Below are positions 36,368-37,463 of a DNA stretch of 37,804 bases, in pieces. A program made the position numbers and the translations under genes. The notes beneath the pieces were generated by a model. The model saw only the letters and a program-made list of their open reading frames with translations. It searched no databases and had not been told where the DNA came from. Positions within the stretch are counted from its first letter, which is position 1. Each line of letters begins with the position of its first letter. This DNA comes from Gammaproteobacteria bacterium (lineage in GTDB: Bacteria; Pseudomonadota; Gammaproteobacteria; SZUA-152), in contig JAJRWE010000090.1 of assembly GCA_024276955.1 (NCBI GenBank), forward strand, positions 1-37,804. Reading direction: 5' to 3'.

Positions 36368-36738
36368 CATGTTACGTAACTACTTACACCATGAAGAACA
36401 TGAAGTGTTGGAAGATAATAGTGAATTAGCACATCAGGTCATTGGTGCTGCCATTGATGTTCACAAGGTGCTTGGCCCAGGCTTATTGGAGACCACCTAT
36501 CAGCAATGCCTGGCACATGAATTCTCATTGAGGAAAGTTTGTTTTCAACTTGAGTGCCCACTACCGGTTGAGTACAAAGATGTTCACCTTGATTGTGGTT
36601 ATCGTATAGATTATTGGTTGAAGGCCAGATTGTATTGGCGATGAAAAGTGTAGAAACATTGCAGGGTATCAAAAGATTTGTCCTGTGAAACCTTTATGCG
36701 CTTCATGTTCTTCATGGTGTAAGTAGTTACCATGTTAC
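36368..36738. mobile_element. Element with perfect 30-bp inverted repeats and 8-bp direct repeats
   Basis: The 30 bp at 36376-36405 (ending CACCATGAAGAACATGAAG) recur exactly inverted at 36701-36730. CATGTTAC flanks both sides as a direct repeat (36368-36375 and 36731-36738), like a target-site duplication. The core holds a decayed GxxExxY gene. The inner sequence is mutated while the ends are perfect, the pattern of a MITE. The motif CACCATGAAGAACATGAAG resembles repeats often found around GxxExxY genes; this is from memory of the family. Confidence 0.75.
36369..36688 (+). pseudogene. Decayed GxxExxY-family (PDDEXK-like) gene
   Basis: GxxExxY proteins are small predicted PD-(D/E)XK nuclease-like proteins of unknown role. 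From ATG 36369 the frame reads LHHEEHEVLEDNSELAHQVI, then GAAIDVHKVLGPGLLETTY (the GxxExxY motif) and LPVEYKDVHLDCGYRID. There one T is missing near 36611-36612; in the next frame the protein continues LLVEGQIVLAMKSVETL. The expected ExK is AMK, so the catalytic Glu is lost. The text then jumps to GIKRFVL and stop at 36686-36688, missing about 35-40 residues of the usual C-terminal region. The gene is dead by frameshift, active-site change and internal deletion. Confidence 0.75.
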
Positions 36739-36956
36739 AAACCTTGTTGACATGTCAATTAAGCCATATAGGCCAAGACATGTAACAGAAATACACATAA
36801 GATACTTTTGAGCTATTCCGTTTATGCCAAAATCCAAAAATGATGGCGTTACTTGGATAAGTAATGAAAGTAGCATGCTTGCAAGCAACCAGAAAAAATA
36901 GGTGTGCAGTTTAATTTCGCGTGGAAGAAAAAAGCTCTCATTCGTATGACTGTCCG
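36739..36956. other. AT-rich region without recognised gene
   Basis: No gene recognised. A 25-codon frame at 36824 lacks a ribosome-binding site. The right end holds one arm (36923-36936) of the inverted repeat that reaches into darP. Confidence 0.5.
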
Positions 36957-36972
36957 CTAGCTTTTTTCTTCC
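36923..36972 (-). terminator. Inverted repeat across the darP 3' end
   Basis: GGAAGAAAAAAGCT (36923-36936) and AGCTTTTTTCTTCC (36959-36972) form a perfect 14-bp stem with a 22-base loop. One arm encodes the last residues of DarP. It may stop transcription of darP, but the stem is AT-rich. Confidence 0.4.
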
Positions 36973-37463
36973 ATCAACTCGCGCAGATAACGAAACAGCA
37001 GGCGCGCCGAGCGCGGCGGTTTGTTGGCCAGTTTTTCCTTGCCGGCGTTGCGCATTAGCTGGCGCAGGTATTGGCGGTCGACATCCGGGTGCTGCGCCAC
37101 CAATTCCTCCAGTACATGATCGCCTTCCTCCAGTAGCCGGTCACGCCAGCGTTCGATGCGGTGCAGCTGTGCCGCCGCCTGGCGTGATTGGCCGTGCAGG
37201 GCATCCAGCTTCTCACGAATGGGCGCGGGATCGACATTGCGCATCACTCGGCCGACGTATTGCAGCTGGCGCTTGCGTGCGCCGCGGCTGTGGATGCGCC
37301 GTGCCTCGACGATGGCGTCGTACAGACTCTCGGGTAGCTCGAATTTCTTGAATTGCTCCGCTGTCAGGTTGACCAGTTCCTCGCCCAGTTCCTGTAGGGC
37401 GTGCATGTCCCGCTTAAGCTGGGATTTGCTCTTTGGTGCTTCGTTGTCGTCATCTGTGGTCAT
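36957..37463 (-). CDS. darP: Ribosome-associated protein DarP (YjgA, DUF615)
   Basis: DarP (formerly YjgA) binds the large ribosomal subunit and acts late in 50S assembly. The 168-residue product begins MTTDDDNEAPKSKSQLKRDM; the family core has KSQLKRDMHALQELGEELVN, LYDAIVEARRIHSRGARKRQ, LQYVGRVMRNVD and the end PRSARLLFRYLRELMEEKS. All blocks are present and the protein is all-helical. ATG 37463 is chosen because it starts the acidic N-terminus; the longer frame upstream overlaps the next gene. It is 22 bp downstream of the Fe-S/FAD oxidoreductase gene on the same strand. Confidence 0.94.
   Translation of the reverse strand: MTTDDDNEAPKSKSQLKRDMHALQELGEELVNLTAEQFKKFELPESLYDAIVEARRIHSRGARKRQLQYVGRVMRNVDPAPIREKLDALHGQSRQAAAQLHRIERWRDRLLEEGDHVLEELVAQHPDVDRQYLRQLMRNAGKEKLANKPPRSARLLFRYLRELMEEKS

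Follow-up and report, generated by a model that had tools for sequence, protein, structure and literature searches.

The locus described here raises the question of why a small element should keep perfect terminal inverted repeats around a gene that has plainly decayed, and of what acts upon such ends. In the window (the whole stretch of 37,804 nucleotides that was analysed), two 30 bp arms at positions 36376-36405 (forward strand) and 36701-36730 (reverse strand) are complementary at 30 of 30 positions with a spacing of 295 nt, and the 8 bp sequence CATGTTAC abuts both on the outer side, at 36368-36375 and 36731-36738. The perfect 30 bp inverted repeats and 8 bp direct repeats of the original prediction were confirmed to the base. 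When the 700 bp region was shuffled 15 times, the longest inverted repeat obtained measured 8-12 nt, compared with the 30 nt observed. The true ends of the element read GTAACTACTTA... (36376-36386 on the left, 36720-36730 on the right; short form GTAACTACT) and the motif CACCATGAAGAACATGAAG starts 11 bp further in, forming the inner ends at 36387-36405 and 36701-36719. The element sits between convergent genes, tonB-like and DUF615-like, and outside any operon. A separate 15 bp perfect inverted repeat, TGGAAGAAAAAAGCT / AGCTTTTTTCTTCCA, at 36922-36973, overlaps the DUF615-like gene at its 3' end and is probably the terminator of that gene.

The core, at 36423-36697 on the forward strand, belongs to the GxxExxY family, a PD-(D/E)XK family. 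It matched NCBIfam TIGR04256 at 7e-19 and 68 bits (curated cut-off 35), with the start of the gene near 36423, and Pfam PF13366 (PDDEXK_3) at 2e-18 and 67 (cut-off 22), and retains 65 of 116 positions of the family while lacking both the reading frame and the catalytic Glu. All three lesions previously read from the sequence proved real. The frameshift lies near 36609-36612. The codon equivalent to E78 is GCG (Ala) at 36638-36640, leaving the D-ExK catalytic set incomplete, whereas E78, D68 and K80 are invariant across 39 intact relatives. An internal deletion of 96 bp, with its junction at 36661-36670, has occurred between two copies of GCAGGGTATC, both of which are still present in the copy at C185. 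This deletion is recurrent, the orthologous copy between fliP and fliQ being full-length in genome G000 and cut at the same place in G005.

A search for the 30 bp end yielded many copies in the same genome, at approximately 13 loci, and further copies in two of six congeners, at approximately 12 loci in G005 and 4-5 in G001. The element was absent from the other members of the genus and from 50 further genomes, save for short matches to unrelated GxxExxY genes, and no copy was found in the plasmid records searched. Several contigs stop inside copies of the element, as would be predicted of a repeat. Perfect 8 bp duplications were present at three loci with unrelated surroundings (CATGTTAC, GGTAAAGG and AAAGCAAA), the geometry of the window copy being repeated at the latter two, and four further copies have kept 6-7 of the 8 bases. 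Between fliP and fliQ the element of G000 is flanked by GGTAAAGG on each side, and the same position in G001, G002, G003 and G004 is empty, with a single uninterrupted GGTAAAGG site; in G005 the duplication around the orthologous copy is preserved at 7 of 8 bases. The predicted 8 bp target duplication was in this way verified against empty sites at a sister locus. For the window locus itself no alignable empty site was found, the tonB/DUF615 intergenic region being too divergent in the six congeners. Dispersed copies, terminal inverted repeats, the lack of a functional transposase and, at fliP/fliQ, a target duplication checked against an empty site are those of a MITE.

Dispersal might alternatively reflect segmental duplication or a recombination hot spot, with the copies carried by larger flanking repeats. 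Six loci (C87, C123, C153, C213, C133 and C5) do share their flanks and have spread inside a larger repeat, but at six others (C6, C156b, C177, C185, C210 and C3) the flanks are unrelated and homology stops at the tips of the element. For the family as a whole this explanation is highly improbable, being refuted by the empty fliP/fliQ sites of four congeners, and it holds only for the six nested loci. The larger dispersed repeat, with a left flank CCCACC...GATTAAA and a right flank AAATAGGC..., hosts nested copies at those six loci of G000 and at several loci of G005. One copy (L026, 2145-2494; G000:C177) sits inside another inverted-repeat unit, of end type CGCGAATGGACGCRAATAA.

IS66 elements possess inverted repeats of 20-30 bp that start with GTAA and produce 8 bp duplications (PMC11946415; PMC3281130). 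Genes of IS66 (PF03050) are present in the genus, with element ends GTAACTACTCAGCC, and the outermost 11 bp of the window element, GTAACTACTTA, agree with these ends at 10 positions. The likeness, GTAACTACTtA at the tip of the MITE against GTAACTACTcAGCC in the same-genus IS66, is confined to approximately 11 bp. The family accordingly combines GTAA-type termini with 8 bp target duplications, three of them perfect and four retaining 6-7 of 8 bases. Its own genome contains only a fragment of IS66, the remnant of which reads GTAACGACTCAGCC. No complete IS66 copy bearing its own duplication was found among the draft genomes of the genus, where IS66 copies are partial or lie at contig ends; the one copy with complete ends (L110) showed no matching 8 bp (flanks ATCGAATC versus GATATCGA) and the others run off their contigs. 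Since the tips match those of same-genus IS66 and IS66 makes 8 bp duplications, comparison of the sequences suggests that the window block is probably a MITE that is built on a GxxExxY unit and relies for its movement on an IS66-type DDE transposase acting in trans. Like MITEs of the IS66 family it is short and non-coding, with terminal inverted repeats, 8 bp duplications and tips of the form GTAACTACTyA. It differs from them in its core, which consists of a decayed GxxExxY unit, complete with nested ends, rather than of a deleted IS66, and in having only approximately 11 bp in common with IS66.

The element would accordingly be composed of two nested layers, an outer IS66-like tip of 11 bp (GTAACTACTTA) at each end and, within, a former GxxExxY unit comprising CACCATGAAG-AACATGAAG ends and the gene for a small protein of PD-(D/E)XK nuclease fold. 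A single capture of such a unit between IS66-like tips may have preceded amplification. The outer tip would be recognised by the transposase, presumably that of IS66, and joined to the target via an 8 bp staggered cut. Decay of the core, through frameshifts and recurrent deletion between short direct repeats, would be unconstrained, since a copy would remain movable for as long as its ends worked. Among the clear copies that retain the catalytic codon, none of 17 encodes Glu (Ala in 14, Thr in two and Val in one). Because all of these lack Glu, the family would appear to have spread in trans, and the copies are most simply explained if catalytic activity had already been lost in the founder of the dispersed family. 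The absence of Glu could in principle also go back to a founder that depended on another, active GxxExxY protein in trans. The copies are only 75-93% alike, so the activity is presumably old.

The original prediction had gone further, proposing that GxxExxY genes in general are parts of small mobile units defined by ends of this kind. Intact GxxExxY genes were indeed found to lie routinely within inverted repeats. For 59 intact loci from diverse phyla with enough flanking sequence, an inverted repeat with a score of at least 18 surrounded the gene at 47, as against 10 of 196 control positions shifted within the same contigs; at a score of at least 20 the corresponding figures were 42 of 59 and 4 of 196. 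In a second sample, drawn from the phylum, 19 of 28 loci scored at least 18. The term native GxxExxY unit is used here for a GxxExxY gene with inverted CACC-type repeats on either side. The ends of native units are mostly TTCACCRCARAGRCRCARAG..., with a Bacteroidota type TTACACAGAG..., and where the anchors are clear the units mostly measure 430-460 bp. The inner ends of the window element (36387-36405 and 36701-36719) fit this definition and share the register CACCRCARAG... with native ends, whereas native units do not carry the GTAACTACTTA tip. Enclosure by CACC-type inverted ends is therefore a general property of GxxExxY genes, and the 8 bp duplication belongs to the IS66-like shell. Sampling of 398 genomes from the phylum showed GxxExxY genes in 65, and the rule spans Planctomycetota, Acidobacteriota, Bacteroidota and Proteobacteria. 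The inverted-repeat unit is not mentioned in the sources consulted for TIGR04256 and PF13366, and no published description of inverted repeats around GxxExxY genes was found in the open-access literature. Judging by titles and the opening lines of abstracts, the papers retrieved for GxxExxY do not concern inverted repeats, and none was retrieved for PDDEXK_3.

The predicted structure of a GxxExxY protein (mean pLDDT 94) has a PD-(D/E)XK nuclease core, the nearest folds being SSO0001, which we take to be a Cas4 protein, and lambda exonuclease, with modest TM-scores of approximately 0.5. A sequence search for solved structures of GxxExxY relatives returned none. The obvious hypothesis is that the protein acts on DNA, in the movement or repair of the unit. 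Such a nuclease, together with CACC-type repeats that enclose the gene at most loci across phyla and so tie it to the ends, might be taken to mean that the window block derives, by decay, from a GxxExxY transposon able to move itself, whose nuclease cuts the CACC-type ends and makes the 8 bp duplication. Against this, native units show no target duplication, the direct-repeat length being 2.15 compared with 2.20 in permuted pairs (permutation p = 0.64), the 8 bp duplications of the window family lie outside GTAACTACTTA, and that family spread after loss of the catalytic Glu. A self-mobile transposon is already disfavoured and we consider it unlikely. The machinery that makes the 8 bp duplications in the window family is most likely IS66 and not GxxExxY. 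Of the earlier description of the block as a non-autonomous copy of a GxxExxY element, the mobility and the lack of autonomy stand, given the copies, empty sites and 8 bp duplications, but the element looks to be an IS66-type MITE with a GxxExxY filling. The wider proposal likewise survives in the general enclosure of GxxExxY genes by inverted repeats, but the mobility of this particular family is better ascribed to its IS66-like shell. As an IS66-type MITE the window copy belongs to a known kind, although its filling is unusual, and the general rule is of greater importance.

A different reading of the inverted repeats is that they act as RNA, forming a long hairpin that is excised by RNase III, so that insertions in operons are tolerated and the ends kept. 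Intervening sequences of 23S rRNA are single-gene elements of 400-500 nt that are bounded by inverted repeats and cut by RNase III, and their core gene often decays (PMC4990558). The setting of native units would suit such excision, since 28 of the 40 loci at which both neighbours were called lie between co-directional genes, filling the gap that opens at the stop of the upstream gene and closes shortly ahead of the start of the downstream one, although these gene calls were heuristic. Over the arms of 65 native units, however, A-C mismatches (101) were as common as G-U mismatches (97), whereas RNA pairing would tolerate G-U. Because the two are equally frequent, the arms do not appear to be maintained for RNA pairing. 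The window copy, moreover, lies between convergent genes and carries a target duplication at the level of DNA. An RNA-hairpin role was rejected for want of a G-U excess, and we regard it as very unlikely. GxxExxY units thus share with the intervening sequences, which carry a four-helix-bundle (S23p) gene, the form of a single-gene unit of approximately 430 nt with terminal inverted repeats, but they differ in the gene, in lying outside rRNA and in having no covariation signal at the RNA level to match the RNA processing of the intervening sequences.

Four-helix-bundle genes (TIGR02436, relatives of S23p) also occur outside rRNA, and inverted repeats were found around 21 of 30 such loci (L243-L272). 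Their ends have a 7 bp period, e.g. GTAGGCAGTAGGCA, with types GTAGGCA, GAGTGAG and AGTAGTG, distinct from the 9 bp period of GxxExxY ends. REP and REPIN sequences are small palindromic units, with gene-bearing and gene-less versions, that lie between genes. GxxExxY units resemble these in palindromic form, in existing with and without the gene and in intergenic position, but RAYT, the REP-associated transposase, is an HUH Y1 enzyme whereas GxxExxY has a PD-(D/E)XK fold, and the ends of GxxExxY units are arrays of 9 bp period.

Native GxxExxY units are likely candidates for mobile elements in their own right. A more specific proposal is that GxxExxY genes are the sole gene of widespread and apparently undescribed mobile units of approximately 430-460 bp, in which a Cas4- or lambda exonuclease-like PD-(D/E)XK protein is placed between inverted arrays of 9 bp period (TTCACCRCARAGRCRCARAG...), the units settling between operon genes without target duplication and TIGR02436 genes representing a parallel class with ends of 7 bp period; we hold this to be about evenly balanced between right and wrong. 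The rule gives the GxxExxY family a concrete hypothesis, as the nuclease of a selfish intergenic unit, along with defined DNA substrates. It also accounts for many small annotated ORFs that read through the repeats and for internal deletions in otherwise intact units. The inverted repeat of native units tends to extend into the flank (p < 0.002). Among nine genomes of the phylum, no near-identical units were found at different sites within a genome, the only copies having homologous flanks.

Within the genus, other GxxExxY genes have inverted-repeat ends that are related to those of the window family but different (CACCACAGAGGCACGGAG, AACACGGAGATCACAGAG and AACGCAAAGGCGCAAAG), and lie at trpE/trpG and gatA/gatB. 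The trpE/trpG unit of G002, G003 and G005 has lost most of its core and kept its ends, so a dead core with good ends is not peculiar to the window family. No clean empty site for a native unit was found at gatA/gatB or trpE/trpG, where every congener holds some repeat unit. The gatA/gatB gap is a hot spot for several types of unit. In G000, G003 and G004 it contains a GxxExxY unit, whereas G001, G002 and G005 (L229, L231 and L232) have an array of CACTAAA type there and G006 (L230) an inverted repeat of CGCAAAG type, both without a gene. Gene-less versions of both the GxxExxY and the TIGR02436 end types occupy this site in congeners. In one GxxExxY unit at this site (L089, 300-830; G000:C33) gatB apparently takes its start codon and initial residues from the right arm, which would then be translated in the frame of an essential gene. 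Elsewhere, native units were observed directly before pglX in BREX-like loci, or between hmaB-like and hmaC-like genes of an Hma-type defence locus (L135, L179, L155 and L159), the latter site being common to a Planctomycetota contig and a Desulfatibacillum contig and so to two phyla.
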